NCBI GenBank assembly: GCA_013350335.1
Contig: CM023540.1
Location: forward strand, 43,693,222 to 43,757,221
DNA: 64,000 bases
Source of the DNA: Chimonanthus salicifolius
Lineage: Eukaryota; Streptophyta; Magnoliopsida; Laurales; Calycanthaceae
Reading direction: 5' to 3'
A model generated the notes under the pieces. The model was not told the origin of the DNA. It worked only from the letters and a program-made list of their open reading frames with translations, and did no database searches. How positions within the stretch are numbered: position 1 is the first letter of the stretch; each line of letters starts with the position of its first letter. Position numbers and translations under genes: made by a program. Of the stretch, positions 1-64,000 are shown piece after piece.

Positions 1-324
1 CGATAAATTCTCTCTCCTCTTTTGTATTTTTTTAAAAATATCGGTATTTTTTATTATTTTATTTTTTTGAAATTAAAAAATAAATAAAAAATCCAAAAGA
101 AAACTTTAAAAAAATAAATAAATTGAAAATGAAAGTATCGGCCGATATCAACTCAGGCCCACCATCATTTTGAATTTTTTTTTTTAAAAAAGACCGATAT
201 CATGGATATCGGCCGATATCAGACTGATATATATCATCGATATATCGGTTATATCGGTCGAGAACTATCATGTACAGTTGATACAATACGTATTGGCCGA
301 TATGACAAGGCACTTGCACCCCTG
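1..324 (-). mobile_element. hAT-like MITE, 3'-terminal part (cut by window edge)
   Basis: This piece has the TATCGGCCGATA-type palindromes (near 139-152 and 210-300) and an internal T/A-rich core, and it ends in TTGCACCCCTG at 324. That is the reverse complement of the CAGGGGTGCAA terminus seen in intact copies elsewhere in the window. The other end lies left of the window, so the target-site duplication cannot be tested. The T/A-rich core and the GGCCCACCA segment match the copy at 5148 in the opposite orientation. No protein is encoded. Confidence 0.7.
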
Positions 325-5147: not shown

Positions 5148-5492
5148 CAAGGGTACAGATATCGGCCGATACGAAACGTATCGGCCGATATAGCCAATAT
5201 ATCACCGAATCATATCAGTCTGATATCGGCCGATATGATTAAAATCGGTATTTTTTTTAAAAAAATCAAAACGGTGATGGGCCCGGGTCAAAATATCGGC
5301 CGATATCAGCCGATATTTACATTTTCAAATTTTTTTTTAAAAAAAGGTTTCTTTTTCAATTTTTTTATATTTTTAATTCAGAAAAAATAAAATAATAAAA
5401 TAATACCGTTATTTACAAAAAGTAAAAAATAAAAAGAGGAGAGAGAATCATATCAGCCGAATTATCGACCGGGGCGTTTTTTGCACCCCTAA
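5148..5492 (+). mobile_element. hAT-like MITE of the TATCGGCCGATA family
   Basis: The start CAAGGGTACAGATATCGG and the end TTTGCACCCCTAA are slightly decayed versions of the family termini. The flanks ATCATAAG (5140-5147) and CTCCTAAG (5493-5500) agree at 6 of 8 positions, consistent with an old 8-bp target-site duplication. TATCGGCCGATA motifs cluster at 5160-5240 and 5285-5320. The interior is T/A-rich and has no reading frame. About 345 bp. Confidence 0.75.
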
Positions 5493-7242: not shown

Positions 7243-7577
7243 CAGGGGTGCAAATATCGGCCGAATAATTTTTCTCTCCTCAAAATTTCTTTTTTGGATA
7301 TCGGTGATTTTTTTTTAAAAAAAATTATGAAATTTTTTTTAAACAAAAGATCTAAAAAAGACTTGATTCTTTTTTTTTTTTTTTAAATGAAAAATCTAAA
7401 TATCAGCCGAGATATCGACTTGGACCTACAACCGATATTTTTTTTTTTTAAAATACGAATTTGGTGGATATCGGTCGATATTTGACTGAATTATCTCTGC
7501 GAGATATTGGCCATATCGGCCGATTTCCACCAAGTAAGGCCGATACAATGCGTATCGGCCGAGATTTATACCTCTAG
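7243..7577 (+). mobile_element. hAT-like MITE of the TATCGGCCGATA family
   Basis: It opens with CAGGGGTGCAAATATCGG, the best-preserved terminus in the window, and closes with GATTTATACCTCTAG. The flanks GGTCCATG and GGTCACATG differ by one inserted base, which suggests an 8-bp duplication. The palindromic CGGCCGATA motifs lie in the outer 100 bp on both sides (7257, 7498-7560), with T/A-rich DNA between. It is non-coding. Confidence 0.8.
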
Positions 7578-12179: not shown

Positions 12180-12290
12180 AACAGGTAAACTGTAAATTCA
12201 GTGAGAGTGAAACCCAGAGAGAGAGATGCAGTAATGAAGAAGAAGATGGAAGGGTGAATCAGACGGAAAAGGAAACGGTGGATTTTTTTC

Positions 12291-12449: not shown

Positions 12450-14203
12450 TATTTGTTTGACGTGACTCTCTCTCTCTCTCTCTCCATATTGTTGCAGAGG
12501 AGCCCTCTAGATTTTCTACGATGCATGCTTCACCCTAATTCATACATCACTGGTGGGACCCAACTTACAAGATGAAAACCGTTGATGGAACTTATGATTG
12601 GTGTAAACCTACAAAGTGCCATTTTTATTTGGATAAGATAGAGATCCTCATGCTTATTAACATGGCTAGTAATTCTGAAAAGGACAAAATTTGTTAGAAA
12701 CACGGGTGCAAATATCAGTCTATACGTATTGTATCGGTCGAAATGATATGGTTTACTGAATTTTGGACCTCTAGTTAAAAGACATGAGATGGAGTGAAAT
12801 TCTTATTTTATTCCTACTAGAGTACTGCTTTTCAAGTACCGGTGTACCGATAACACGTTGCTCTGTATGTATCCAGTAAGGGTATAATGGGAATTTTACT
12901 TCATTCAGTGTCTTCTAACAAATTTTGCCTGTGTTAGGATGGACAGCCTACTAATATGAGTTGAATATTATTTGTGTAAAATTTGAATCTTATTGAATGA
13001 TATTAGTTTATAATTTTAGATTACATATTTAATAGATATGAAATTATTAACTTTTTATTATTTATTTAATAAAATTATAATGATTGTATTGAAGAGTTTC
13101 TTTTCTATTATATCATCTATATTTTTTTAATTTTTTTTTATCAATTGTATACAACTATGGGAGGCATATGTTATGATAAATGTATAGTTTTCTAATTTAA
13201 AATTTATTGGTGAATTTAGGTTTCTCAATTTTTCTTTAGCCAAATTCAAATTTATCATTCAATTTTATTATTTGCATATGAGCCTTCGAAAAAAATATTT
13301 TGAGGCCTAACCTTTTTAAATAAGGCTTAGACCCCATATACCTATTTTTGGGTCATTCATTTATGAAATTTTGAACTCTGAATTTTTTTATTTCATTTAT
13401 TTATGAAATTTTTAAGGGAGCTATACAGAGTTACAGACATCCAGTTTTTTTTTTTTTCCTACATACCTTTTTTCAAAAACTTGAGTGAAATTACCCTTTT
13501 ACCCTTCCACATCAAACAACGGCCGCATCCACCGAACTCTTCCCTTTCGTTCGAAGGCCAGTACTGCCGAACCGTTTGTGAAGGGGGAGAAGAAAATCTG
13601 TGGGCCCCACCGTTGATTGAAACCTAAGGTCTTCCTTAGGTTTAGATAGGTGGGCCAAGGGCGACCATGGTGGTGTCGATCCTAGATGGAGAAGTGAATG
13701 ATCCATTTCGATCTAAGGAAAAAACCCACAACACTGAATTTCAATCGCCCCAAGCAGCAGTAGAAGAAACTGGCCAGAGGAGGATCCCATGTGAGTCCGA
13801 TCAGAGATATGATGGTACAGATGGATAGACCATAAAAATACAGAAGGGGTATGGTGAGTCCCACCGACAAAAACTTTCCCGATCACCTGATCTAAGCCGA
13901 GAAGACGATCTGGTGGCAACAGAAAAATACACGCTCACTTTTAGGGACCAGCATCCGTTCAACAACATATTTTGGGACTGAAATGGATCTCAACACAGTG
14001 CAAAATGTGTCTCATGGACCGATATTTTTTAAAAAAATCTATGTTTTTCTTGGATTAATAAAATCAACATGTGGGACCAGCTCTTTGAAAATGGGTCTAC
14101 CCTGTGCGTCACACCAGACAGAAGCATAACTAAAAGGTTTGGGAGCACTCTCTCAGTCTCTCCAAGGATCTCTTTTAAGGGTCACTTTTCTTTCACTCCA
14201 AGC
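12450..14203. other. Spacer upstream of the MEI2-like gene
   Basis: A (CT)n run lies at 12461-12483. A short MITE derivative (12701-12774) follows, then AT-rich DNA. From 13500 to 14180 is a less AT-rich stretch with CCCACCGTTG, GGGCCAAGGGCGACC and similar words. It has open frames on both strands (for example minus 13713-13919), but no protein family was recognised and they are probably repeat-derived. Confidence 0.4.
12701..12774 (+). mobile_element. Short deletion derivative of the TATCGGCCGATA MITE family
   Basis: It begins CACGGGTGCAAATATCAG and ends TTGGACCTCTAG, decayed family termini only 74 bp apart, with GTATTGTATCGGTCGA between. The flanks GTTAGAAA and TTAAAAGA are only loosely alike, so a target-site duplication is not proven. 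Confidence 0.4.
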
Positions 14204-14560
14204 CAGGGGTAGAAAAATCGACCGGCCAGAGATCTCGGCCGATTTTTCATATCAGTTGATATATCGGTTTGGCCGTTATATCGGCTGAATTTTTTCTCTC
14301 TCCTACCTTTTTTTTAAAAAAAAAAAATTTCAAAAAAATTAAAGTAAATACAGATAATTAGGGGCTTATTGAATATGTAATTTTTTCATAAAATATCGGA
14401 CATTTACCTCTTCTAATATATTTTTGAAGTTACGATAAAGGAAAATTATATAATTAGTAATAAAATTGTAAAAATTATAAGAAAATGATATAAATGAGAA
14501 AAATTTGTAGAAATAATTTTATAATTTATTTTCTTAGTCAATGAGTATTATTTTAAGTTA

Positions 14561-14889
14561 GGGTATCCCTAGGGTGTGCCGAAAACACATTTAGAAAAGT
14601 CAAAAGATCTTGAAGTCTTAAAGTATTTTTATCAGGTTATCGTAATTAGTTCGGATACTCAATTTGAGAAATTTTGAAAATATACAGTGCTTAAAAAATA
14701 ACTTTAAAGTTTTAAAGGAGATTTTATTATTTAATACACTATGCATATTATTTTTTAAGCATCGTGTATTTTCAAAATTTCTCAAATTGAATATCCGGAC
14801 TAATTATGATAACCTGATAAATATACTTTAAAACTTCAAGGTCTTTTGACACTCCTAAATGTATTTTTGGCATACCCTAGGGATACTCT
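14561..14889. repeat. Foldback element with long inverted arms, nested in the hAT-like element
   Basis: The left arm starts GGGTATCCCTAGGGTGTGCC and continues through TATTTTTATCAGGTTATCG and CAATTTGAGAAATTTTGAAA. The right arm, ending ATACCCTAGGGATACTC at about 14889, is its reverse complement with scattered differences. The arms are about 130-150 bp with a short AT-rich loop near 14715-14745. This is the layout of a MITE or foldback transposon. No internal coding sequence is present. Confidence 0.75.
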
Positions 14890-14919
14890 TATTTGTAAAA
14901 TACTGTATTTTAAATATTT

Positions 14920-15050
14920 ATGAGTGTCAAAAGGCCTTTAAGTCTTAAAGTATTTTTATCAGGTTATCGTAATTAGTCCAGATATTCAATTTGAGAAATT
15001 TTAGAAATACACAGTAATTAAAAAATAACTTTAAAATTTTAAAAGATCAA
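14920..15050 (+). repeat. Third copy of the foldback arm
   Basis: GAGTGTCAAAAGGCCTTTAA, CTTAAAGTATTTTTATCAGG and CAATTTGAGAAATTTTAGAA repeat the left arm of the neighbouring foldback in direct orientation. It lies only about 30 bp beyond the right arm, which points to a partial duplication or a second truncated insertion. Confidence 0.65.
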
Positions 15051-15576
15051 GTACACAATTTGAAAAATATCAGAGTACACACAGAATTTTCAAAGTGAAT
15101 TCTCTATGCAGCTTAGGAGAGTTACTTTTTGCCAAGTTTTCACTTAAAAACCCTAATGCTCATGTTTTAATACCCTTCTTCTCTTTCACTCTTTCTTCTC
15201 TTTCACTCTCTCTCTTAAGCCCTAGCAGCCGCCGCCACTGTGTATTTTTTCCCTTCAACGAAGAAGAGAAAGAAGAGAAAAGAAGCTCTGAAAGGTGTGT
15301 GATTTTTTTTTTTCAATCTTTTCTCCATATTTTCTTTTTTCTCTTTCCATTCTTGTCAGTTATTTTTTTTTAAAAAAAGGGGTTTTTTTTTAAAAAAAAA
15401 AACTGAATTTTTAAAATTCGACCGATATCATGACCGATAATTCAGTCATATCGGCCGAATTTTTTTTGTACGGCCGATACTATACGTATCTGCCTATATA
15501 ATTCAGTGGTCGAAAATCCGAATTATATCGGCTGATACGCACAGTATTAGTCGATATTTTGACCCCTGCTCCAAGC

Positions 15577-17474: not shown

Positions 17475-18070
17475 TCATAGATGGTAGACACCTTGGATTG
17501 CTGAATCAACTTCCTGTTTTGCAGACTTCTTCTCCGTTGGCTCACCTGCTAACTTGAGAAAACAAAATTTCTCGGCTGAGTCACTTTCGATAACAAGTTT
17601 ACCCAACCTTAGGGAATTCCAAATAGTCAATGCTCTCCTAATGCTAAAGAGTTCAGCTTCATTCGATTGTCTCCTACCTATCGACTCTAGGAAAACAACC
17701 AAAGGCTTCCGAGTGTAATCATGCAGGACTCCACTAATTCCAGTTGGACCTGGTTTTCCCCTAGCTGGTCTGTCCACATTGAACTTGAAAGATCATTGTT
17801 GTGGGGGAACCTAGGTGCTGGACTTCGTAGTCTTTTTAGAGACTCCCGACAGAACCCTTCGATGATTGATAGAAATCTATTATCTTGGACCCTATGAAGT
17901 CTTTCCCTGATAAGAAGCCAAGTGCACAATCTCCATTTTGCCTTCTGGAATAACTCCGCAGTCTCTGACTCCTTTGATTGAAAGATTCTTGCATTCCTCT
18001 CCTTCCAAATAGTTCCTAGTATTGCTGCGGAAATTGTTATGAAGAGTTTTTCCCCCTTTGTTTGACAAAT
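17475..18070 (-). pseudogene. L1-type LINE relic: RNase H domain and preceding segment
   Basis: The minus strand encodes the end of a plant LINE ORF2. First comes AAILGTIWKERNARIFQ (about 18040-17985), the conserved segment after the zf-RVT domain. An RNase H domain follows after a frame change: FNVDRPARGKPGPTGISGVL (about 17790-17730), then SNEAELFSIRRAL and LVIESDSAEK. The acidic catalytic positions D (VDR), E (NEAEL) and D (ESDS) can be seen. The frame is broken by stops and shifts, so this is a dead copy. It lies in the presumed 5'-UTR intron of HAL3, antisense to it. Confidence 0.8.
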
Positions 18071-19693: not shown

Positions 19694-19700
19694 TTAGAAG

Positions 19701-22605
19701 ATGGCGTATGTAGAGCCTATGTCAGAAAGAGAAGCAGTACAAAATGTGGGACCTGTAAAACCAAGGATTCTGTTAGCTGCCAGTGGGAGTGTGGCTGCTA
19801 TAAAATTTGGAAGTCTTTGCCATAGCTTTTCTGAATGGGCAGAAGTTAGAGCGGTTGCCACCAAGTCTTCCTTACACTTCATCGATAAAGCATCTCTACC
19901 TAAAGATGTGATTTTTTACACGGACGATGATGAATGGTCCAGTTGGAAAAAAATTGGAGATAATGTGCTTCACATAGAGCTTCGCAAGTGGGCTGATGCA
20001 ATGGTAATTGCCCCCTTGTCAGCAAACACACTTGGAAAGGTACGCTGCCTTGTACTTCCTAAATTTGTGCAACTTTGGCTTAATTACACTGATGAAAATT
20101 GTTCATTGTCATCGGAAGCTTTATTCCATCTATCTAGAGTTTACTTTCTAACTACACCTTTCCACAACCTAAGCCATCCAACTGATAAAAGCACTTATTG
20201 TTGATTGAAGATGTTAAATTTTGATTATATTGTTCCATTCATTTTAAAAAATGCATTTACCGCTGTTTCCGTTTACACTGTTTTGTTCAGCGATGTGTGA
20301 TCACTTGTCATCATGAGTTGCGAGTGTATGGACATGTACAGATTGCAAAAATGCATAGTTTGTATTTCATTTGAAAACCATCACAAACATAGAAGGATAT
20401 CTTTCTAAAAGTTTTAAACATTTGTCTGTTTTATACCATTAATTCAGTCTTCAAATTACTAAACTTTCAAGGTGATTTGCTCAAGATCAAATGTATTTGA
20501 GTTTACTTGATTGAGTTTCAAGTTGATATCAATTTGAGCAATCTATTATGTTTTAATTGTTGTTGCTATTCTTTGTTTTGAAAACAAACTTTTACAATTT
20601 TGTTCCGCTTTGTTCTCTAGGATGCTGATGTTTCTCATTTTGATTTCTAAGACCCATGCATGGCTCTTACTGAATGCAGCCCCCTGCTGACCTGCAACAG
20701 TTGAACCTCACAATTGTTGGGGACTTGGGGCCTTGCCTTATTAGTTAATTCCTTCTCATTTTGATTTCTAAGACCCATGCATGGCTCTTAATGAATGCAG
20801 CCCCCTGCTCACCTGCAACAGTTGAACCTCACAATTGTTGGGGACTTGGGGCCTTGCCTTATTAGTTAATTCCTTCTCATTTTGATTTCTAAGACCCATG
20901 CATGGCTCTTAATGAATGCAGCCCCCTGCTGACCTGCAACAGTTGAACCTCACAATTGTTGGGGCCTTGCCTTATTAGTTAATTCCATTCTGTTCTCAGC
21001 TGGAACGTTCTGGTCCGACTAAAAAAGGGAATGGAACGGCTTGCAGTTTGGTCTTGGGTTCCATTTCATGCGAAATAGGCTGGAATGGCCCATTTTGGTC
21101 CCAGTTGTTCCACTTTATTGATTTTATATTTTTAAAAATTTATACATATAAATGTAAAATCCAATCATACAAATTAAAAGGTGGACTTGATAAGCTGCAT
21201 GTAGATGGAATTTTAGACCAAACTTACTTGATCTTAGTGGACATTTGGTGACTTTGACTATTAAAATCAAGTGGTTATAAATTGAATTTGAGGCTGAAAT
21301 TTTGTCTACTTGTAGTTTATCAAGTATATTTGAATTTCATACGGTTGATATTGTATGGATTTGATGAAAATTGAAGAAAAAAATGAAATGGGTGTGTTGT
21401 ACCTATATGCTTTGGTTTTTTTTTTGAAATGGTATATGCTTTGAGTTTTGACATTTGATTTTGAATAAAATTAGAATTCAAGTTTATTTCTTTTGGTTTT
21501 TTTTGTTTAATTGAATTTTTATTTGATTCCAATTAGAGTAAAATTCAAACTTCAGTTAGTATTTGCTAATGATGCTATAATAATTTGGGATTAGCTAAAT
21601 GAATAAGTATAAAATGATAATTTATGTTCTTATTTGTATAGCTTAATGTGAAATGATGAAAAATAATTAATTGTAACATTTTTATAAGTTTGTATTATTT
21701 TCTATATATTTTATAACCTTTTTTTCATTTTTAAATTTTTTATGCTGTCACCAAAATGGTTGAAACACCTCGGCGTTCTGCTATGATGAAAAAATCGGAA
21801 TGGGTTTTGGAACGAATCTGATAACGTGGGCCTAATAAAAAATCATGTAGTCCCATTCATTAGGTGTTTTTTTTATGACCGGTGGTGTCCGGGCATCTCA
21901 CATGTAGGGGACTTTACTTGACTAAATCCTTCGGGGCATGTGCACACCTCCCTACACACACATCGAGTCCAAACGATGAGGAATAACCTCATGGGGAGTG
22001 TCTCAGAAGGGTTTGAGCGTAAATCATGCTCAAGACCTCCCTTCATGATGGAGCTTCTTGACCATCATGCCAACCCCCTCTGGTTACTTGGAGCTTTTGT
22101 TCGCTATGTCTGATTGTCCATTTCTTTGTATCTGTTCAAATCAATTGATGACAAGACTGCTGTGTCCTTTACACAGTGAGATGGTGGGGTTCCCTTGTGC
22201 AAATCGGATATAGCACACATGCCATGTTGGAACACTGGGATTGTTATCATCTAGAGTTGTGTAATCTATAGACAGCCTTATTTGCACAGTTCTTTTCATG
22301 TTGATCGTGAGTTAATTTTACTCGTGTTCTCTTAGGTTGCTGGTGGATTATGTGATAATCTGCTAACGTGCATTGTGCGAGCATGGGACTTCAATAAGCC
22401 ACTCTTTGTTGCTCCTGCCATGAACACCTTCATGTGGAATAATCCTTTCACAGAACGCCATCTTGAATCGATCATTGAACTTGGTGTCTCTCTTATCCCT
22501 CCTATCACTAAGAGGTTGGCTTGTGGAGATTATGGAAATGGTGCAATGGCTGAACCTTCTCTGATCTACTCGACTGTGACCCGTGCACTGAATGGTAATG
22601 GTTGA
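19701..22605 (+). CDS. HAL3: HAL3 / phosphopantothenoylcysteine decarboxylase, two exons
   Basis: This FMN-dependent enzyme decarboxylates 4'-phosphopantothenoylcysteine to 4'-phosphopantetheine in coenzyme A synthesis. Plant HAL3 proteins are also linked to salt tolerance and growth. The exons are 19701-20039 and 22336-22605, with donor AAG|GTACGC, acceptor CTTAG|GTTGC and phase 0. The protein has 202 residues, and plant homologues are about 200-210. Visible motifs are LLAASGSVAAIKFG (24-37, flavin-binding start), NVLHIELRKWAD (catalytic His91), APLSANTLGK, AGGLCDNLLTC, PAMNTFMW (the PxMNxxMW motif with Asn143) and RLACGDYGNGAM (Cys176 and the substrate clamp). The ATG at 19701 is chosen because it follows a splice acceptor by seven bases and gives a normal N-terminus. 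The C-terminus ends early in ALNGNG, while many homologues extend a few residues further. There is no transit peptide, so it is probably cytosolic. All key residues are intact and the gene is likely functional. Confidence 0.96.
20632..20986 (+). repeat. 121-bp tandem repeat, three copies, in HAL3 intron
   Basis: The units start at 20632, 20753 and 20874 with TTCTCATTTTGATTTCTAAG and end with CTTATTAGTTAATTCC. The first two are nearly identical, differing at only a few bases (such as TGCTGACC versus TGCTCACC). The third lacks 8 bp around GGGGACTTGGGG. The very low divergence implies a recent duplication. Confidence 0.95.
21867..22082 (-). mobile_element. SINE in HAL3 intron, reverse orientation
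   Basis: Read on the minus strand, the head contains GGTCAAGAAGCTCCATCATG and a B-box-like GAGCATGATTTACGCTC. The 3' part is GCACATGCCCCGAAGGATTT, GATGCCCGGACACCACCGG and then poly(A) (poly(T) at 21867-21873 on the plus strand). Its middle and end resemble the elements at 54522 (-) and 6030 (+). Confidence 0.6.
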
Positions 22606-23469: not shown

Positions 23470-24968
23470 GCTAAGATTTAAAGAGCATTAGTATTCTTTG
23501 TTTGCAAGGTGGTGAAAGGTGTTAGCAAGTAGATTGAAGGTGCTCCTTTCGAATAATATCGGGGATTCATAGGGAGCTTTTTGTAGATAATAGATAGATC
23601 TTGGATGTTGCTCTAATCGCAAATGAAGTGATACATATGAGAAAAAGGACAAAAACTAGGCTTGTTTTTCAAAGTGGATATGGAAAAGGCATATGGTTTT
23701 GTTCCAATGGTCCTTTGCTAAAGATTTGTTTGAGAGTATGGGATTTGGCTTTGGGTGGAGAAGATGGATGAGAGCATGTGTAGAGGGCTCGATGTATTTG
23801 TTACTTGTAGATTGAGGCTCAGCGAGGTCTTAGGCAAGGGCCTATCACCTTGGTTGGAGAGGGCTTGAGTAAGTGGAGAAAGCAGGTGTAATGGGTATTG
23901 TGAGGGGTTTTTAGGTTGGGGAGACTTGACTGAAGGTAACCCACCTACAATTTGCTGATGATACTTTGTATTTTTGTGAACCTAATATGGGTGAGATGCT
24001 AGGTTATAAGACGGTCCTTAGATGTTTTGAGATGGTGTTAGGACTTGGGATGAATTTGGCGGAAAACACACTAATAGGGATTGAAGTGGATGAACCTACC
24101 CTAACAAGGTTAGCAAATGTGGTAGGCTGTGGTACTGGTAAATTACCATTCACATACTTAGGATTGGCAGTTGGGGTAACCCGAGGTCGAAAAGGTTTTG
24201 GATCCCGGTCATCGAGAGAGTGGAGAGGAGTCTAGACGGGTGGGAAAGGAATTACCCCTCCATAGAAGGTAGGACCACCCTCATTAAGGCAGTTCTAGGA
24301 AACCTTTCTATATACTACATGTCCATTTTTGAGATACCTTTGGGAATTGTCGGAAACTAGAACAATTGTTTAGGAGTTTCCTATGGGGGAGAAGGAGAAT
24401 AGGAAGATGATTCATCTCGTTGGGTGGTCGGAAGTTACTAAACCTAAGGACGGTCGAGGATTAGGGATAATGCCGCTACAAATTAGGAATCAAGCACTAT
24501 TGTGTAAATGGAGTTGGAGGTTCGGTAGAGAAAATGAAGCCTTGTGGAGAAGAGTACTTGTAGCAAGAAATGGGGTAGAGAATCTAGGGAAATGGGATTT
24601 GGATCAAAAGGTGGAGAGATATGGGTCCGCTGTGATAAAAGCTTGGTGGAGAATGGGTAGAGGTAAGGAGAATGTTAAAAATATTTACATAGAGAATCTT
24701 AGGTTCTTAGTAGAAAAGGGAGATATAACCTTCTTTTGGATTGACCTATGGGCGGGGGTAAAGACCTTTGAAAGACATTTATCCCAGGCTGTACAGTGTA
24801 GCTATGTACACAAAGCCGACAAGGTGCATGAATATCATAGGTGGGAGGATGGAGGAACCAAATGGGAGATAAGCTTTCAAAATCGCTAAGAGAATTTGAG
24901 AAGGAAAGTTTAGAACAGCTAAAGAACCTATTAGGAGAATTCCCCGTCATAGGGGAAGAGGACAATGA

Positions 24969-25047
24969 GAGAATTTGGACCAGTCATCCTTTCGGGTTAT
25001 ATACAGTGAGAATTTGGACTGGCGATCATTTCGGGTTATATACAGTG
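24969..25047 (+). repeat. 39-bp tandem duplication inside the LINE relic
   Basis: The block from GAGAATTTGGACCAGTCATC to ATATACAGT (24969-25007) is followed directly by a second copy (25008-25047) with a few substitutions. It repeats 13 codons in frame. Confidence 0.85.
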
Positions 25048-25417
25048 AAAGCGGCATTGAAGATGGCAGTATCGGATTCCTTCCAAAATTCCCATTCAGT
25101 TTTCGCTTGGAAATGTGTGGCACCCATGAGAGTTCAAACGTTGTGTGGTGTGCTTTTATGAAAGATTCAATCTAGATTGGAGCTACTTAGGAGAGGTGTT
25201 TTGAGGTCGTGGGAGGATCCTCATTGTGTGATGTGTGGTAATAGTGAGGACATGGATCATCTTTTAGCGTCGGTTGCAAGACGAGGTTGGAATTATTTTG
25301 CGGACCTTTTGGGGGGTCTTGGGTGCTCAATAAATTGTGTGAAGGGATGGTGGATAGTTGGGTGATCTTAGGTGTAGGATCAGAAGTGAAGAAAGCTTGG
25401 TACACAATACATGGGGT

Positions 25418-25497
25418 AGTGCTGTTGTTTGTTTCGAAAGAAAAGAATGCCAGGATCAGTGCTGTTGTTTATTTCGAAAGAAAGAATGCCCGGATCT
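25418..25497 (+). repeat. 40-bp tandem duplication inside the LINE relic
   Basis: AGTGCTGTTGTTTGTTTCGA through AATGCCAGGATC at 25418 is repeated at 25458 with one deleted A and a few substitutions. Both copies encode part of the FERKNARI segment. Confidence 0.85.
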
Positions 25498-25560
25498 TTG
25501 AAGACAAATCTTTAGAGAGAGAGATGGTGCGTATGTATGAGGATGTTTGTTTGTGAGGAA

Positions 25561-27307
25561 TTTAGGGGGTATTAAATGACAAATTTCTTGAATTCGTGGG
25601 AGGAGGTTGCATGAGTGGCGGCAGGCCAAGGTGGGTTTGCATGAGTGCATCTTCAAAAGGGCTGAAGTTATATGAAATCAGATTCAAATTCTGAAAAATC
25701 AATGCCCAAATATGTATTTGGATCTTGAGGCTAAGCTTCACTTACCTCAGTTTTGACTTAGTTGGATGAGATTAATGAACTGCCCCTTCAGATCTTATGC
25801 TCGGATTGATGGATGTAAAAACGGGTCTTTTGCACATGGAGGCTCATACATGTGAGTCTGGGCCCAAGTCCTTTGGGCCGCACTGGGCCCTTTATTTGGA
25901 GCCCACTTGGAACAAATTTGACTCAAAAGTCAACCCTACCAAGATGAGACGAGCACAAACAAATCTTATCTCTCTTTTCATCTCTCTTTCTTCCTCATTT
26001 GATTTTCAAACCTCACTAACCCTACCTCTCTCTCTCTCTCTTGAAATTCAAAATCAAGTTGCTTTATGCACATGGATGGAGTTTGAAGGACTCCATCTTC
26101 ATCCTTCCTCTAGATTTAGCTGACTTACAAAGAAATCTTGTAGGTTTTTTTGGTTATTTTTTGTTATCATGTGAAGGCTATAAATAAGTGCCTTATTTGA
26201 CCCATTCTTGGGGAACTCCAAATATAGGAGAAAAATAAAAACCGAGCAGAGTTCTCGATTTGGAATTATTTTGACTTGCAAGTAAATAGTTTATGAATTT
26301 CTGGTTTCCTTAAATTTGCATAAATTAAAAATATAATTCGGCTTAAAGTCTCACTTTTGCTTAATTAATTGGAATTAGTTTCTTTTCATTCTTCAATTTA
26401 TTTCATTCAAATAGAAACTAGCTTTCATCGACACTTATTCCATTAAGGATTGCCATTTGTGAAACCTTAATCGATTACATTTTGGACGGAAGTCTATTTG
26501 AACTATTGATTTATCAAATTATAAATGAAGGATGGTTTCTACACTACCTAGTCTACATCAAGATATTTGAAAAAGCTTGTATAAAAAAAGAAAATTAAGT
26601 TACATTCATACTTCATCAAGAAGATTATGGAGTAACACTTCATCAGCATATAGACCAAGTTGACCATTCTTTTGAAAAGGGCCGATTTCTTGTTGTACAG
26701 TCTTAAAAAGTTTTAAATATCAATGTAAATCATAAAATAAATAAGTTATTTACTATAATATATCATGATAAGTTGTTTAATATACTACAACACAATAAAT
26801 TATAAATTGTGCATGAGAACTTTGAGCCCCCAATTAAAAATGGGTTTCGTGTTTGGATTGAGCCAGTAGAATGCAAGACCTGAAAATGGCAATTGGGCTC
26901 ATTTGCCCAAAACCTGGGCCGAGGCCCTGGCCCAAATTGACTGAAGCTTGATTTTTCAAGTTGGGCCAAGCCGCTGTGCCGGGCCTGATATAAGTTTCAC
27001 CCGCACTACATGCGGCCTTTCACTTTGTATGAATCATCCTTAACAATATAGGATGTGAAACTGTGAGTCATGTGGCCTCCTATAAATTTACTCGGTGTAT
27101 GTAGGTAGGGAAGCTTGTACATGCTCTGAGAATTAGTCGGGTGCTCTAATGAAAGGTACTTGTTTGGTAAGTTAAGGAATGATGGCTTAGACTCAATCTC
27201 ATTTCATTGACATCATAATAGCTGATTACAAATTTATTCAACAAGAAAATTAAAACTTTATCCGATGAAGTTTCATGAAAAGCCAAATTGCAACCTTAGG
27301 TGGCAAT
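25561..27307. other. Spacer with possible LTR remnant
   Basis: From about 25800 to 26290 the layout resembles a retrotransposon LTR: GCTATAAATAAG (about 26178) as a TATA box, then AATAAAAACC (about 26235). However, no TG..CA borders or primer-binding site were found. From 26800 to 27000 is a GGGCC / TTGGGCC-rich stretch. No gene was recognised. Confidence 0.3.
27060..27165 (+). mobile_element. SINE 3' fragment
   Basis: The order CTCGGTGTATGTAGGTAGGG, GCTTGTACATGCTCTGAGAA, TTAGTCGGGTGCTCTAA matches the 3' half of the SINE at 6030. The tRNA-like head is missing. Confidence 0.45.
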
Positions 27308-29482
27308 AAGGGGTAAAAATATCGGCCGATACTGTGCGTATCGGCCGATATAATTCGGATTTTCAGCCACCGAATTATAGCGGCCGATACGTATAGTATC
27401 GGCAGTACAAAAAAAAATTCGGCCGATATGACCGATTTTTTGACCAAATTATCGGTCATCATATCGGCCGAATTTTAAAAATTCGGTTTTTTGTTTTTTT
27501 TTTTTAAAAAAAGCTTTTTTTTATAATAAATATGGGCCGAGATGACCGATATATCGGTCCAAATCTCGGCCGAATCTGGGCCGAATTTGGGCCGAAACGG
27601 CCGTTTTTTCCCCCAAAAAACAGTAAAACTCGGGCCTGGCCCAACTCAAGTCCGGCGATATTTTGCCGATATATCGGACGATATCCCATGTTCGATATAT
27701 CGGGCGAGATCTCGGACGAGATCTCACCTGTCAACCAATTTCTCCCTCTCACATCTCTGTGTACAGCGGACTGCAGGATTCGGCTGGTCCGGCATGCGTG
27801 AATATTTTATTATTTTTTTTAAATCTGAAAAATCGAACCGGTCCAATTTTTTTCTATGAATACCATTCACTTACATCTCAAATTTCACACCTTGTTTTCA
27901 AGGAAAAAACCAGATTTTACTATTTATCTTCTAAAAAAAATTCACTCTTCATTATTTGATTTAACTAAGTTCTAAACGATCCGGATTTGTTTGAAACCGA
28001 ACGATCCAGACCGTTCAAAGGTTTCTTCATTTATAGATCTACTGATCTTGTAAGTTTTGTAATTTATTTCGATCTATCTGTATGTTATTTTAATTTTTTT
28101 AGCCAAAAATGACATAAAAGTGTTAAAAAAGTTAAAAAATGCTTGAAGTTAAATAAGATATGTAGTAAATAAAAGCTTTATATAGGTATTATAATTTTTT
28201 TCCATCTGAATGTATCTGTAGTTATTTTTTATCTACTTTGTTAGTTACTTTTTTTTTCATTTATTTACTCCTTTTTGTTAACTATTTCAACATAAAATAG
28301 CATAAATGAAAAAAAAAAAAGTTAGAAAATGATAATACCTATAAAATAATAGATGAAAATTTTTCATTTGCTCTTAGTTACTGTTGCTAACATGTCAAAA
28401 TTTACAACAACATTTTTTACATTCACTTACTCTTTATTTTAATTATGGATTATGACATATAAATGTCAGTAAATAGTAAAACCTATAAAATAATACATGA
28501 ATTTTTTTTATTTGCTGTTATTTACTGTATACTAACTTCTGTTACAGGGATGTAATTTTTTCCTTTTATTTTCTTTCTTTTTGTAATTATTTCATTATTA
28601 TCTATGGACTATGACATATAAATGTTAGAAAATGGTAAAACCTATAAAATAAGATATGAAAATTTTTTATTTGCTGTTATTTAATGTATACTAACGTCTT
28701 TTACAAGGATGAAATTTTTCCTTTTATTTACTTTCTTTTTGTAATTATTTCAATATTATTTATGGACTATGACATATAAATGTTAGAAAATGGTAAAACC
28801 TATAAAATAATACATGATTTTTTTTATTTGCTGTTATTTAATGTATACTAACGTCTTTGCAGGGATGCAATTTTTTCCTTTTATTTTCTTTCTTTTTGTA
28901 ATTATTTCATTATTAACTATGGATTATGACATAAATGTAAATGGTAAAACCTATAAAATAATAAATGAAATTTTCTTATTTGCTGTTATTTTTTTATTAT
29001 AATTAAAAATGTATGACATTTGTGTGGTTATCAGTTCAAGTAATTAGGACCCCATTAGTTTCATTTTCTAATATTTTTCTACATTATTATGTAATTTTCA
29101 ATCATTTTATTATTTATTTATTTTTATTTCTATAACTTCATAACTTAAAATAACACTCATTGATTAAGAAAATAAATTATGAAATTATTTCTACAAATTT
29201 TCCTCATTTATATCCTTTTCCTTGTAATTTTCACCATTTCATTACTATTTATATAATTTCCCGCTATCGTAACTTCAAAAATATATTAGAAGATGTAAAT
29301 GTCCGATATTTTATGAAAAAATTACATATTCAATAAGCTCATAATTATCTGCATTTACTGTAAATTTTTTGGAATTTTTTTTTTTTTAAAAAAAGGGCAG
29401 GAGAGAGAAAAAGTTCGGCCGATATATCGGCCGATATGAAAAATCGGCTGGGATATCGGCCCGGCCAATTTTTCTACCCCTG
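27308..29482 (+). mobile_element. hAT-like non-autonomous element, 2.2 kb
   Basis: The start AAGGGGTAAAAATATCGG and the end AATTTTTCTACCCCTG are inverted. The flanking octamers GTGGCAAT (27300-27307) and GTGGCATC (29483-29490) agree at six positions. The first 450 bp are packed with TATCGGCCGATA motifs (27320-27480 and 27535-27725), and a second cluster lies at 29415-29470. Both ends match the element at 14204 in reverse orientation, including GTGCGTATCGGCCGATATAA and the TTATGAAAAAATTACATATT region. The core is different and contains a 158-bp tandem array. Overlapping open frames at 27504-27959 on both strands are by-products of the palindromic repeats. No transposase is visible. Confidence 0.85.
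28446..29000 (+). repeat. About 158-bp tandem array in the hAT-like element's core
   Basis: GGA(T/C)TATGACATA(TA)AATGT recurs at about 28446, 28606, 28764 and 28921. Each is followed by GGTAAAACCTATAAAATAA, a TTTGCTGTTATTTA segment and TTTTTCCTTTTATTT. The spacing is 157-160 bp over about 3.5 copies, AT-rich and non-coding. Confidence 0.85.
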
Positions 29483-29613: not shown

Positions 29614-29762
29614 CAGGAGTCAAGATATCAACCGATATCCGATATATATCAGTCGATATTAATACCTTTTTTAAAAAAAAAAAAATACCGACCGATATAT
29701 TGGCCGATAATGAGATATCGGTCGATATATCGTATCGGCCGATACCAAATTTTAAACCCCTG
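29614..29762 (+). mobile_element. hAT-like MITE, 149 bp, 7/8 TSD
   Basis: It starts CAGGAGTCAAGATATC and ends AAATTTTAAACCCCTG. The flanks TCTGAATA (29606-29613) and TTTGAATA (29763-29770) differ at one base. The inside is a T/A run flanked by CCGATAT / TATCGGTCGATA palindromes on both sides. It lies only 131 bp from the end of the 2.2-kb element. Confidence 0.85.
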
Positions 29763-32474: not shown

Positions 32475-32602
32475 CTGGGGTAGAAATCTCGGTATCCGCT
32501 TAGATATGGGCAGATAAATTTCTCTTTCTTATTTTTTTTTTTTTAACAAAAAACACCAATATGAACTGATACATGTCGTATCAGTCGAGATTATTACCTC
32601 TG
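32475..32602 (+). mobile_element. hAT-like MITE, 128 bp, decayed
   Basis: It starts CTGGGGTAGAAATCTCGG and ends TTATTACCTCTG. The flanks ATTCTACC and GTTTTACC agree at 6 of 8 positions. CGTATCAGTCGAG near the end is a CpG-decayed version of the family palindrome. Confidence 0.6.
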
Positions 32603-48560: not shown

Positions 48561-48791
48561 CAGCGGTAGAAATATTGCCAGAGATATCTGGTATTGGCTC
48601 AGATATTTCAAGTATTGGACGCCCGATATATCTTAGCTGATATGAGATATATTGTCTGTACGGGTGAAATCTCGATTGATACAGGCAAGATCTCGGTTTA
48701 TACGACCGAAATTTGACAAAAAAGAAAGAGAGAAATATCAGCCGATATTTGTGGAACTGAAATATCAAGCCCAATGTTTTTTTTACCCCTC
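48561..48791 (+). mobile_element. hAT-like MITE, decayed
   Basis: It starts CAGCGGTAGAAATATTG and ends TTTTTTTACCCCTC. Inside are decayed palindromes such as CCCGATATATC, ATCAGCCGATATTT and CTCGATTGATA. No matching octamer was found at the flanks, so the exact ends are uncertain. Confidence 0.55.
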
Positions 48792-52520: not shown

Positions 52521-52905
52521 CAAGGGTGAAGATCTCGTTCTGGCCGAGATATCGGCTGATATGGTCATATCGGTGATACGATTCTCTCCTTTTTAAAATT
52601 TTTTTTTTCAAAATATCAGTCATTTTTTATTTTTTCTGAATTGAAATAAAAATAAAAAATTGAAAGAATGATCATTTTTGAAAAAAAAATTAATCAGAAA
52701 TATCGGCCGATATCAAAACCGATATTTGATCGATATCGGTTAGGCCCATGAACAAATCAAATTTTTTTTTTTAAAAAAGGATTGATATTTAATGATATTA
52801 GCCAATATATTAGCCATATCAACCGAGATCATCAAAGTAAAGCCGATACGTATCGTATCGACCGAGACTATTACCCATACATATCGGCCGAGAATATTAC
52901 CCATG
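52521..52905 (+). mobile_element. hAT-like MITE, 385 bp, perfect 8-bp TSD
   Basis: It starts CAAGGGTGAAGATCTCG and ends GAATATTACCCATG. It is flanked by identical octamers ATTGTATT (52513-52520 and 52906-52913). TATCGGCCGATATC lies at about 52701 and decayed CGTATCGTATCGACCGAG motifs near the right end. The T/A-rich core with GGCCCATGAA matches the 5148 subtype in reverse. The open frames in it are not genes. Confidence 0.88.
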
Positions 52906-53399: not shown

Positions 53400-53407
53400 A
53401 GGTCTAT

Positions 53408-53684
53408 CAGGGGTTGAAATATCGGCCAATACGTATCGTATCGGCTGATATATATCGGTTTTGGATATGTGAATATCGGCCGATATGTATCGTATCGGCC
53501 GATATTCACAATATCGGCCTTGATATCGGCCGTATTATATCGGCCCGATATCAAAATATCGGCTGATATCGGCCGATATTTAAAAAAACAAGGAAGAAAG
53601 AGAAAAATATCAGCCGATAACGATATATCGGTCGACATATCGTATCGGCCGATATATCGGCCAATACCGATTTTTAAACCCCTG
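53408..53684 (+). mobile_element. hAT-like MITE, 277 bp, perfect 8-bp TSD, richest in the palindrome
   Basis: It starts CAGGGGTTGAAATATCGG and ends CGATTTTTAAACCCCTG. It is flanked by identical octamers AGGTCTAT (53400-53407 and 53685-53692). About ten TATCGGCCGATA or one-base variants lie inside, most of them in the first 170 bp, with a short A-rich gap near 53580-53610. The symmetry produces overlapping open frames on both strands (53378-53638 minus and 53469-53777 plus) that are artefacts. This looks like the youngest copy in the window. Confidence 0.92.
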
Positions 53685-53979
53685 AGGTCTATATCTATTT
53701 GTGAGGCAATTTTCGTTTATGCTACGATTCTCATTAAAAAAAACTTTATATATTTAGAATCAACAAAACTGGAGTGAGAAAGTGGAAAATGTTTATGAAG
53801 ATTAAATAATTCTTTTAAATAAATATTCGAATTTGAGAGATTGATATATAACTCATAATTTCCTATTTTTTTTATATATTTACTTGTAATCTACTTCCTC
53901 CTCAATTCATAGATTGTAATCTCAGATTTTAATATTGAGAATTCTAATACACAGTCATGGTTGCAATGTAAAGTACTAA

Positions 53980-59400: not shown

Positions 59401-59590
59401 CTCTTTCTGTCTCAATTTAGTTGTCTTATATGGATTTCGAAATTGTCCCAAATAGTTGTCTCATTTATATTAGAGCAGCATAAAGTGTGTTGAAAATTGA
59501 TAAGATCATATGGAGTACTAGCTTTATATAGAGAGTTCCTTAAAAAATGTAAATGTTTCAAATGAGAAAATTAAAATGGGACGGAGGGAG
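59401..59590 (-). mobile_element. Stowaway-type MITE
   Basis: The right end reads GGGACGGAGGGAG|TA, the classic Stowaway terminus (CTCCCTCCGTCCC in reverse). The left end TA|CTCTTTCTGTCTCAATTT is its decayed inverted partner, and both sides carry the TA target dinucleotide. Inside are AGTTGTCTTA, TTATATAGAGAGTTCCTTAA and GTAAATGTTTCAAATGAG. Stowaway MITEs are mobilised by mariner-like transposases. A second copy in the opposite orientation lies at 16000-16172. Confidence 0.9.
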
Positions 59591-60904
59591 TACTATACAT
59601 GAATGTGCCCAGATTAACTAGGTCAATTAAAAATGGATCATGGTTTTTGTAATGGGTCAGGTCAACGAAATAGTTATGGGAATAAGAGGATATAAGAATC
59701 GTACGATTTTACGATTTTCGATTCACACTCATTTACCGATTTCAATACGATTCGATTTCGATAACATTAGGTAAAATTGGATAATGCCATACACTTGGAG
59801 CATTGAGAATATTTGTAAAATTCCATACTCAGAAGGTGTGTGATAATATGTTTGAGTGAATATTGCTTTGTGCACATTCCAATGCATAGTTGTGTAAGGT
59901 TATGGTTTGACTTCCGTATGTGCCTATGTGTGATTAATGTGAATATATTGTATCAGATACATATGTATGATTTTTCCAAGTTCACTATGATTAGATGTTT
60001 ACTATAATTGAGAATTAATAGATTTATGATGTGTTAAAGTATGATAAAATGTATGGTAAATCAAAATTTCCCAAGATGTGTAATGTAACCTTAATAACTT
60101 CCTATGCTTGTGTATGGTTATGAGTAATGTATGTATCAAATGAATTCTTATGATTGTGATTAGAATTTTTAGATGGGTAACTCATATAATAAGAATGATG
60201 AATGTGTTTTAATGCCATGCTTGGATTTTATGATGATGTGTACATCACTAGTGGGTACCTGTGTTGATAATGGATGTGGTGGATCGACCTAACCATGTGT
60301 AGAACTAATTTTCATGATTTGAAGAGGAACTTGATAAAGGGTTAGACTAAGTGATATAGGTGAGTTAAGGTCAAGTATCTTAGAACCCAAGGGGGTTAAC
60401 TTGTGCTACAATGGGGATGAGGTAGTATGATTGAGAATATATGGAATGCAATGTAAATGCTAAGAAAGTCTTATTTGATTTTCCTAAAGTAAAAGTATTA
60501 CCACTCCCCAATGTCAACCCAAATGTGAAAATGATGAACTACGGTTGATCTGATCCACTATGTGGTACGTAGGGAACTGAGAGCATTGTGCCTCAGCTCG
60601 ATCAAAAAGTGCATTGTGTCATCCATTTATATTTAGGATGATGTAAAATGTTGAGCAAATTGTGAAGGGTATAAAGGGATTGGTGGGATATACATTCCCT
60701 AATATAAACCCTAATGTTAAATGGTGGATCTCTCGAAGGCGGCTCGAAGAGGTTATGGTGCCTTAGGAGTCCCGATATGATGAGACATATATGTTTGTTA
60801 CTCGAATAAAGCCTAGAGTAGCTAGAGAACTATGAAAATTCTCAAGATGGACAGATGAGGACTTTAGCACTGAGATGTATATAACTAGGTCACTTTATTA
60901 TATT

Positions 60905-61078
60905 AAGGTGTGGTATGGGTGTGTCTTTCACGTGATATTGTTGATTGAGACGTGGTATGGGTGCGTCCTTCACGTGATATTGATTATATTGAGACGTGGT
61001 ATGGGTGTGTCCCTCACGTGATATTGATGATTGAGACGTGGTATGGATATGTCCCTCATGTGATATTGATAACGTTAT
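60905..61078 (+). repeat. About 43-48-bp minisatellite in the LTR, four units
   Basis: ACGTGGTATGGGTGTGTCCC followed by TCACGTGATATTGATGATTG is repeated four times with small length changes. A lone related unit appears near 61266. The CACGTG core (a G-box) recurs in each unit. Confidence 0.85.
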
Positions 61079-61639
61079 ACTTTAGTCCGTTGAAATAGGA
61101 AATTGTCTGATCAGTAAATCATTATGTCTCACCTTTGTTTAGTTAAAATGATGAGATAAATATATAGATTCCATGATTAAGGCCTAGAGTAGCCGTGTGA
61201 CTGTGGGAGCCTCGATATGAATATAAAGAAACTGTGGCATTGAGATGTATATGTGACTTGGTCACTTGATATTGAGACGTGGTATGGATACGTCCCTCTC
61301 GTGCCTATGATGGTTGACTGACCGTTCCAGAGAGGTATTCGGGATGGTAGGTATTTCCTGCTTATTAAGCCCCTAAGTCTTGCTAGGGGTCATGGTATAT
61401 CTATGATATGATATGAAAATTTGATATTATTGCCACAGTCACGTAGTGATTCATTCAAGTGTTGTTTCTACGGATAGAAGATCTCATGGTGAATGATGTG
61501 CTCCTAGATTAGTTATGCCCATGGAGGAATTATATTCATAGATGGTTATTATCCATGGATAGATGATACTCACTGATATAGTGTTACAAGGGATGGATGT
61601 GTATACCCATGGATAATGGTTCCCATGCTGGTGCTTGAA

Positions 61640-61930
61640 TGTTGGTCTTAGGTTAACTTGTTGGTCACATGGTAGACGTATCGGTCTTATGTTAGACGTG
61701 TTGGTCCCGTGGTAGACGTATTGGTATTATGGTAGATATGTTGGTCTCATAGTAGACGTATTGGTCTTATGTTAGACATGTTAGTCCCGTGGTAGACATA
61801 TTGGTATTATGGTGAATATGTTGGTTCTATGGTACACGTATTGGTATTATGGTGGACATGTTGGTCCCATAGTAGGCGTATTGGTCTTATGTTAGACATG
61901 TTGGTTCTTTGATATACATATTTGTTCTAC
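61640..61930 (+). repeat. About 24-bp minisatellite in the LTR
   Basis: The unit TGTTGGTC(C/T)(C/T)(A/G)TGGTAGACGTA alternates with ATTGGT(A/C)TTATGGTAGA-type units over about twelve repeats. An alternating two-unit pattern is visible. Single units also occur near 62065-62175. Confidence 0.85.
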
Positions 61931-62772
61931 GAATGTATGAGTTATGCCCATAGATGGATTATACCCATGGAGTGATTATATTCATGGATGGTTATTACCC
62001 ATGGATAGATGATACTCACTGATGGAGAGTTACCAGGGATAGATGATGAATCCCATGGATGTTGTTCATATGGTAGACATATTGGATTTATGCCTAGATA
62101 TTAATTATATGGTGGGCATATTAACCCCATGGTAGATATGGTGGTCTCATGGTAGACATATTGGTCTCATGATGGACGTGACGATTCTATGGATAGATAT
62201 TATTTTCGCATGGATGGTTATTCCCATGGAGAGGTTTGTGACCATGGATGAGTATTGTATACTGTGGATAAATATTCCCACGGAGGGCATTGATTCCATA
62301 GAGGATTGGACACATATTTAGAGTATTGTCCCCGATGATGGATGTATTTATGTTCGAGTGTAGGTCCCACGGTTGATGTTTATCCCATGTGTGACATTAA
62401 CCCTATGGTTGACGGTGTTCCCATGGTTGGTATAGACTGGCTATTGGTTAGACCCGTGATAGATGAAATCTATTCTATTGATCAGGCCCATGATAAGGTA
62501 ATTAGAATGTCTTGATGTGACATCTTGAATGGCACGGGTTAGTGCCATGAAATAAATGAATTGAGAATTAAGCAGGATCTGATCTCCATTGTGGTATGTA
62601 AGCAGTTGATAATTCAGTTCGATCAAATCAAAGGTCCAATAAGTCCTACGATCCGTAGGGATCTCGGAACACGTGTAGGTTTCACGTGTTTGGACTATGA
62701 GTTATGCATGCTTCAGAGTTAAAAAAAAATAATATTATTTCTAACGTGTTCGTTAGGTCGGGGTGTGACAGT

Positions 62773-62784
62773 TGGTATCAGAGC
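62773..62784 (+). other. Primer-binding site for initiator Met tRNA
   Basis: TGGTATCAGAGC is the exact complement of the plant initiator methionine tRNA 3' end, used to prime minus-strand synthesis by LTR retrotransposons. It lies two bases after the LTR end. Confidence 0.9.
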
Positions 62785-64000
62785 TTAGGCTCAATTTCCC
62801 CGAGAATTGTGTGTATGGAGTTTGAAACTCTGATGAAAGCATGAGATTGTTTTGAGTCACAATGGGGTGAGCAAGATTTTGAGTGAGGCTGGGACCTCCT
62901 CTTGCCACCAGATTTAAGCAACTAATGTTTAGACCGTACTTCGGATGGGATGACAAGAGTGATATTACAGCATTAGCTGGACCAATGAGGGTTGCACTCA
63001 CGTGGACCCTGAGTTGTGTAGTGCTGGATCTGGTTGGACTTGGAAAGGTCACGAAGAAATGATTAAACTCCATGAGTGGAAAACTTTGGAATTTCCTTAG
63101 AATCATATGCAAACCACCTTGTGAGGTGTAGATGAACCTGTCTTCCCAGGAAGTAGAAGTGAGACCATTAGGCCGAGGGTCCTGTGATGGGGGTTTGATA
63201 GACCGGGTGATGATACGCTGGCAGGTAACCACCCAACAGACATCGGTGAGGTGAGTTTGTCACTGTTACCACGTTGGAGAAAGACTAGAAGGACATGTGT
63301 ATTTGTGTCATCGGTTGCAAATGACTGGTATTGTAAACCAGAATTTGCTTGAAATGCGACTTTTAGTCCAGACCAAGAGGTTGAGGCCTATAGTTGGTTA
63401 TAAAAAGTGGTAATGGTAGACCATTAAGTTTGTTTAGAAACGGTCTTTGACGACAGAGGGCATCCTCGTGAAGTGAGTCAGATTTGATTTATGACTCTAG
63501 AAGTCTGAGCCAAGGATTGTTGACTCGAAGGACTCAGGAGAGGTCGATAAAACCTTCAAGTGTGGTCCCTGAGGAAATGATGAATGGGTACAAGAGGCCA
63601 GACATATATACATATTTTCTAAGGAGAGTTCTCCTATGATGAGAGGGATTGTTTTCCCCAAATCTTTGAACACAGAGTACGTTGGCCCATGATATCAACG
63701 ATAGCGATGACCAGGCAATGTGATGCATTGTACTACAAGGCTTAATGTAGTGCACTTGGGTAAATCGTTTGAATACCCCTCATGTAGTGAGTAAGTGTTT
63801 AGAGCCTAGTTGCTCGTGTGAAAAATGCTAGCACCTTGTATGGATGGTTGTGGGCTAGTAAGATATCTTGGAATCCTTGGATTATTTATGCTCTCAATTG
63901 CACGATGGTTGGGATTGTTACTTCATGCCTTATGAGTAAAAAAATTGTATTTGTATATGGATTCCATTTTGTTTAATAATGTAATTATGATGTGAAAGGT
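62785..64000 (+). mobile_element. Retrotransposon interior, leader only
   Basis: The 1.2 kb after the primer-binding site shows no gag reading frame on the plus strand. The minus-strand frame at 62753-63232 is a shadow. Either the leader is long or this is a gene-less (LARD-like) derivative. The element continues past the window. Confidence 0.5.

Follow-up and report, generated by a model that had tools for sequence, protein, structure and literature searches.

A large non-autonomous hAT-like family with a tip-phased palindrome in the genome of Chimonanthus salicifolius

The locus and its elements

The window, by which we mean the whole 64-kb stretch of DNA analyzed here (C9:43693222-43757221), belongs to an 852.6 Mb assembly of Chimonanthus salicifolius comprising 591 contigs, of which C1 to C11 exceed 50 Mb each. 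An exon of a phosphopantothenoylcysteine decarboxylase (HAL3/PPCDC) gene occupies 19698-20204, with a second weak Flavoprotein match further downstream. Among the named matches of this exon, Persea americana and Cinnamomum ranked at the top, followed by Pistacia, Nelumbo, Macadamia, and Magnolia, and the highest local identities were those of Asimina (93% over 57%) and Tasmannia (90% over 58%). On the minus strand, 11168-11335 and 11550-12197 gave a weak RRM_2 match that fell short of the curated cut-off, next to ORF KTTLMIRNIPVKYT, a combination that we take to be the look of a Mei2-type gene. ORF fragments at 17475-18106 and 23930-25556 resembled, by eye, LINE reverse transcriptase and RNase H. 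Six-frame Pfam searches of the window except 25000-27307 and 59483-64000 detected no transposase.

A 277-bp element lies at 53408-53684. Its ends read CAGGGGTTGAAATATCGG on the left and CAGGGGTTTAAAAATCGG on the right (reading inward) and form an inverted repeat of 19 nt with 89% complementarity; as a single strand, the element folds much better than its shuffles (z -12.6). A preliminary description of this DNA had reported inverted ends of the CAGGGGT type here, together with a perfect duplication of 8 bp, and both were confirmed, the flanks agreeing at 8/8 positions. The same description counted about ten copies of a 12-bp palindrome, TATCGGCCGATA, within the 277 bp, which holds when near-copies are included (nine at ≤1 mismatch, 12 at ≤3 mismatches) but not for exact copies, of which there are four. 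Palindrome positions are given below as offsets from the tip; L denotes the end carrying a palindrome at +13 and R the other end.

53408..53684, plus strand: 277-bp element of subfamily C; L end at the left; target-site duplication AGGTCTAT, 8/8
53400..53407, no strand: left target-site duplication AGGTCTAT of the 277-bp element
53685..53692, no strand: right target-site duplication AGGTCTAT of the 277-bp element
53420..53431, plus strand: first L-end palindrome of the 277-bp element, at +13, TATCGGCCAATA, 1 mismatch
53439..53450, plus strand: second L-end palindrome of the 277-bp element, at +32, TATCGGCTGATA, 1 mismatch

Nine family members, 53408-53684 included, were delimited in the window and cover 8.2% of it. 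The other eight are given here with a member truncated by the window start and a degraded member.

1..324, minus strand: member truncated by the window start; CAGGGGT tip at 324
5148..5491, plus strand: 344-bp member; L end at the left, carrying two exact palindromes; no recognizable duplication (2/8 ungapped)
7243..7576, minus strand: 334-bp member; L end at 7576; flanks GGTCCATG/GGTCACATG, whose match needs a 1-bp indel (4/8 ungapped)
12701..12773, plus strand: 73-bp old member; L end at the left; duplication GTTAGAAA/GTTAAAAG, 6/8
14204..15568, minus strand: 1,365-bp member of subfamily A; L end at 15568; duplication CTCCAAGC, 8/8
27308..29482, plus strand: 2,175-bp member of subfamily A; L end at 27308; duplication GTGGCAAT/GTGGCATC, 6/8
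29614..29762, plus strand: 149-bp member; L end at the left; duplication TCTGAATA/TTTGAATA, 7/8
32475..32602, minus strand: 128-bp old member; L end at 32602; duplication ATTCTACC/GTTTTACC, 6/8
48561..48786, plus strand: degraded member; L-type end at the left, right tip approximate; without a clean duplication
52521..52905, minus strand: 385-bp member; L end at 52905, its terminus duplicated (26 bp); target-site duplication ATTGTATT, 8/8

The two subfamily A members were joined by end similarity to a 2.04-kb type found elsewhere in the genome (see below). Members of 1.4-2.2 kb are longer than usual MITEs and, with the 2.04-kb type, the family is not all miniature. The 2,175-bp member, which contains an internal tandem array (28439-28991, unit 158-159 bp), gave no Pfam match in any of its six frames; in 2.04-kb copies, matches spaced 159 bp likewise precede the R end. 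The 1,365-bp member holds a nested long inverted repeat (14549-15028, 359 nt, 82%). In the 385-bp member, the L terminus is present as a tandem duplicate (26 bp, 52880-52905), and the target duplication lies outside the outer copy.

Near-exact palindromes (≤1 mismatch) occur at 35 sites in the window, against 0.04 expected from shuffles. Sixteen of the 35 fall in the four elements recovered by an automatic duplication scan. Of the six outside the nine delimited elements, three belong to the start-truncated member and the others lie at 940, 47793, and 48736, the last of these in the degraded member.

Genome-wide copies

The exact palindrome was found 32,934 times in the genome, and its reversed control three times. 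CAGGGGT followed by an exact palindrome within 30 bp gave 5,817 matches, in which one tip may be counted twice, and none for the reversed control. With 29 of the 35 window sites inside delimited elements and this number of tip-linked matches genome-wide, the palindrome as sampled lies mostly inside elements rather than outside CAGGGGT ends, in line with the association drawn in the preliminary description. Going by the tip count, the sequence points to thousands of elements in the genome.

The best 40 of 2,921 candidates for the 277-bp element, the element itself included, align over positions 1-277 with 93-100% identity; because these copies match end to end, its boundaries are recurrent. The 277-bp type is short, non-coding, and high in copy number, with uniform subfamily ends, as is typical of MITEs. 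For the two ends of the 2.04-kb type, the best 40 of 1,995 and 40 of 1,731 candidates were scored, giving 41 and 40 matches that were 98-100% identical. This near-identity and the perfect duplications described below indicate that the family moved recently, with an apparent youth flattered by the comparison of best-scoring copies. Methylation-driven decay was considered for the 277-bp subfamily and dropped, because CG sites change no faster than A/T sites (0.0112 vs 0.0132 changes per site per copy) among 21 copies; these are the closest ones, which limits the test. At ~5.03-5.15 Mb on contig C1, the tip CAGGGGTACAAATATCGGCCGATA recurs seven times on the same strand, with four of the six gaps measuring ~25 kb; these recurring tips look like a tandem segmental array. 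A search of viral contigs gave no match.

Target-site duplications and target preference

In the window, a scan for paired CAGGGGT-like tips, each accompanied by a nearby palindrome and the pair flanked by a duplication at ≤1 mismatch, returned four elements, while 53 displaced-flank controls gave eight hits in total. Across the nine window elements (four from this automatic scan and five partly chosen by eye), flank identity reached 0.76 for a duplication length of 8 bp and did not exceed 0.37 for any of the other lengths scored, which ran from 4 to 12 bp. When the ends of the nine elements were re-paired, the observed sum was reached in 0 of 100,000 shuffles. A clean duplication is absent in two of the nine (7243 and 5148). 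Mutator elements make 9-bp duplications, PIF/Harbinger elements 3-bp duplications, and Tc1/mariner elements TA duplications. Over the lengths scored, from 4 bp upward, the window flanks do not follow such patterns: identity is 0.76 at 8 bp but falls to 0.37 for 9 bp and to 0.19-0.33 for lengths of 4-7 bp.

Beyond the window, 14 of 19 palindrome regions sampled on contig C1 contained one or more delimited elements, 19 in total at ≤1 mismatch, of which 15 have perfect duplications; the other five regions held no delimited element, and displaced-flank controls produced three hits across ten shifts. Three element pairs in this sample appear to be copied loci, so that independent insertions number 16. 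For the 277-bp type, the 20 best copies other than the element itself include 16 with a perfect duplication and 19 with one at ≤1 mismatch. The right tip of the 2.04-kb type stands at its predicted position in 20/20 copies, and 17 of these carry perfect 8-bp duplications (16 by script and one after tip correction); of the remaining three, one shows an indel and two show no duplication. Consistent 8-bp duplications, on which the preliminary description had staked its reading, are thus a property of the C1 sample and of both copy types.

Pooling yielded 56 duplications after one of each copied-locus pair (L041/L045, L042/L044, L052/L053) and the copies without a duplication at ≤1 mismatch (3/20 of the 2.04-kb type and 1/20 of the 277-bp type) had been omitted. 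T occupies position 2 in 34/56 and A position 7 in 31/56, which together make 65/112 against 0.266 at other positions (p 3e-12). T is nearly absent from position 1 (two cases), T occurs 26 times at position 3, and A 30 times at position 6. The target preference of the family is nTTnnAAn/nTnnnnAn, and nTnnnnAn is also that described for Hermes (PMC10368747).

Palindrome phase and end asymmetry

Palindromes sit at preferred distances from the tips. In the window, the commonest offsets from a CAGGGGT-like tip are +13 (nine) and +32 (five), compared with a mean of 0.70 per offset, and the first 100 listed of the 5,817 genome matches place 37 at +13, 20 at +32, 19 at +19, and nine at +30, where a uniform distribution would give 3.2. 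Because family elements share offsets by descent, phasing alone is no proof of constraint.

The two ends of an element differ. In all 23 elements compared (19 from the C1 sample and four from the window, all with duplications), a +13 palindrome with 0-3 mismatches is present at exactly one end, and the other end shows 4-11 mismatches; the cut of three mismatches was picked post hoc, and at the script's initial cut of four, 2/23 score two L ends. A second L-end palindrome at +32 (≤3 mismatches) accompanies the first in 12/23. At the R end, the full +13 copy is missing, the outer half-site at +13-18 (≤2 mismatches) is retained in 13/23, and the best palindrome within the first 50 bp lies at +19 in 9/23 and at +30 in 7/23. 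Across nine L ends, conservation is 0.73 and 0.70 for the palindromes, 0.48 for the 7-bp spacer, and 0.37 for the inner sequence, a comparison biased by the selection of these ends by their palindrome. As far as can be read from the sequence, the tip-phased palindrome is a distinctive feature of the family, and its arrangement, with the analogy to Hermes considered below, suggests a candidate transposase-binding site.

Search for an autonomous partner

The hAT dimer domain (PF05699) has 1,904 candidate places in the genome, of which 150 were scored. Within 1.5 kb on either side of 30 such loci, which form only four sequence clusters, 29 showed no palindrome at ≤1 mismatch; the exception, L016, has one in a degenerate array. 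Palindrome-like units of this array recur ~170 bp apart at L016:1-450, a locus that also holds a hAT dimer domain, and sequence like the 14549-15028 inverted repeat of the 1,365-bp window member is also found at L016 beside that domain. For another 12 places (11 PF05699 and one PF14372, the latter from 150 scored of 262 candidate places), the 900 bp on the downstream side contained no palindrome at ≤2 mismatches. The partner transposase was therefore not found at these 42 loci (41 with the dimer domain and one with the RNase-H domain), which represent few families, nor at three DUF4371 places from 150 scored of 259 candidates. Around the places of L010, L012, and L027, another ~4 kb was read in each direction: L010 and L012 copies diverge at TAGGGCTGCAACTCGGGTCGGG, and palindromes appeared in two of these flanks (one in L063, four in L067), beyond the stretch common to the copies. 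An end-like sequence near L034, TAGGGGTGTAAACGGACC, is a candidate only.

DUF4371 (PF14291) was considered as the autonomous copy, since two matches on C1 lie 3.56 and 3.57 kb inside palindromic tips. This link was rejected: at the match whose surroundings were read, the palindromic tip is part of an independent 131-bp element that has its own duplication, ATAGTAGT. The aligned DUF4371 transposase unit has CAGGGCCGGCCCTG on one side and no matching tip on the other. Both the L010-type family and the DUF4371-type family (L109) have hAT transposase domains and share the genome with the CAGGGGT family, but, judged from one boundary each, they end in TAGGGCTGCAACTCGGGTCGGG and CAGGGCCGGCCCTG, unlike the elements described here; hAT families of different end motifs thus appear to coexist. 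A hAT family other than the CAGGGGT one (L007-L015, L017-L020) has many copies that are 97-99% identical, several with a 720-aa open frame, and at three DUF4371 places an 849-aa frame runs uninterrupted. Given near-identical copies and long open frames, other hAT lineages also look recently active.

Discussion

We consider it probable that these elements form a large, recently mobile, non-autonomous hAT family, whose transposase, supplied in trans, would use the L-end palindrome. The hAT-like assignment made in the preliminary description is supported by CAGGGGT tips and 8-bp duplications in the copies sampled elsewhere in the genome, and the nTnnnnAn target preference, which was added here, strengthens it. 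Two further proposals of that description, a palindrome that binds the transposase and mobilization by a hAT transposase encoded elsewhere, stay putative, with phasing and end asymmetry favoring the first. The elements combine the features of hAT members, namely an 8-bp duplication, short CAGGG inverted ends, and an nTnnnnAn target, with subterminal palindromes that are clustered and tip-phased (putative transposase sites). This is a new family of a known kind, that of non-autonomous hAT elements. A text search of the papers covered did not find TATCGGCCGATA, and searches with ATCGGCCGAT and five tip strings returned no title on this family among the matches listed (titles only). The main text of a MITE survey of 207 plant genomes does not mention Chimonanthus. 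The comparison covered the literature, and the family may already have a name in a database such as Repbase or P-MITE.

One alternative accepts the hAT type and takes the palindrome not as a transposase site but as a sequence spread by local duplication, a hairpin or host-factor feature if anything. Consistent with it are the strong single-stranded fold of the 277-bp element, the irregular spacing of internal copies, some in tandem-like arrays, and the joining of two GATA/TATC boxes in the palindrome. We regard it as unlikely, however, given a palindrome that is phased to the tip (+13 for one end, in most cases +19 or +30 for the opposite one) and the greater conservation of L-end palindromes than of the spacer and the inside, with the ends palindrome-picked. 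Far less probable still is membership of another superfamily with 8-bp duplications, such as a P-like one. Elements outside hAT can also have an 8-bp duplication and CA..G tips, and the loci examined held no hAT transposase with CAGGGGT-family ends. P-element MITEs have, moreover, been listed for plants (PMC7385995). Against this stand the CAGGGGT tips, the nTnnnnAn preference, and the clustered subterminal repeats, which jointly match hAT, as well as the abundance of hAT dimer-domain places.

The family could also be extinct or orphaned, with its autonomous partner lost and only fossils remaining. This deserves somewhat more weight, although we doubt it: the partner was absent from the 42 loci examined and old window members have eroded duplications, yet copies that are 98-100% identical and carry perfect duplications speak for recent movement, and the hAT candidates examined are a small part of the total, from few families.

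On the preferred reading of a recently mobile family served in trans, a hAT transposase would place paired BED zinc fingers on the L-end palindrome, one per half-site TATCG(G). The L end would be located first, as the loading end, and the R end would then be captured, mainly via its tip, before cut and paste across an 8-bp staggered target, as in the Hermes model. Inner palindromes may serve as extra or accessory binding sites. If movement needs only the ends, internal sequence would be free to be lost or replaced.

Hermes is close to this arrangement in several respects. At its left end, two BED domains sit on a quasi-palindrome at bp 11-27, a one-base shift of which relative to the tip impairs cleavage, and its right end is described as having no BED domain contact (PMC10368747). 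The 8-bp duplication, the nTnnnnAn target, and a subterminal (quasi-)palindrome at one end only are common to both systems, the phase to the tip being critical in Hermes (PMC10368747), and the center of the site lies 19 bp from the tip in Hermes and 18.5 bp in the present family. A fixed-phase palindrome at one end only, which is the Hermes-like architecture, was found in 23/23 elements at the post hoc cut of three mismatches. The motifs differ, the Hermes BED motif being AAGT with AT-rich DNA (PMC10368747) and the putative site here the 12-bp TATCGGCCGATA at +13-24. Unlike in Hermes, this palindrome is repeated at +32-43 in about half of the elements and is also scattered inside them.

Other systems offer partial parallels. 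Maize Ac/Ds is likewise a hAT system in which non-autonomous copies of varied size keep the tips and transposase-binding subterminal repeats around foreign filler, but the Ac hexamer AAACGG is non-palindromic (PMC3260210). In the mosquito hAT element Herves, the ends differ in transposase binding and a short subterminal motif suffices; binding to its motif, CG/AATTCAT, was demonstrated biochemically (PMC3143072), whereas for the present family we infer it. Among plants, Brassica nigra has the hAT MITEs BniHAT-1 (434 copies, 673 bp) and BniHAT-2 (331 copies, 666 bp), which make 8-bp duplications and went through a burst specific to their lineage (PMC7385995), compared with the thousands indicated here by 5,817 tip matches and with the phased motif of this family. 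The BED-finger proteins DREF and ZBED1 bind TATCGATA and TGTCG(C/T)GA(C/T)A, and the TATCG half-site is half of the DREF element (PMC6179265). These are animal host transcription factors; the likeness is limited to the half-site and could be chance.

More tentatively, and by analogy with Hermes, it is possible that very many natural copies keep a geometry that the Hermes model predicts: a BED-dimer palindrome 18.5 bp from one tip, perfect in the consensus, doubled at 19-bp spacing in about half, and absent from +13 at the other end. If so, the genome would amount to a saturation experiment on hAT end recognition. If the BED finger of the partner reads TATCG, the match to TATCGATA would point to BED recognition conserved between plants and animals. 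The tip consensus can be used for finding the partner transposase and for annotating a large, recently mobile repeat family. Asymmetric, phased recognition of hAT ends has been solved structurally in the insect element Hermes, and tens of thousands of plant sites seem to follow a similar geometry; as the palindromic motif in the plant is a different one, the generality of the Hermes model becomes testable.
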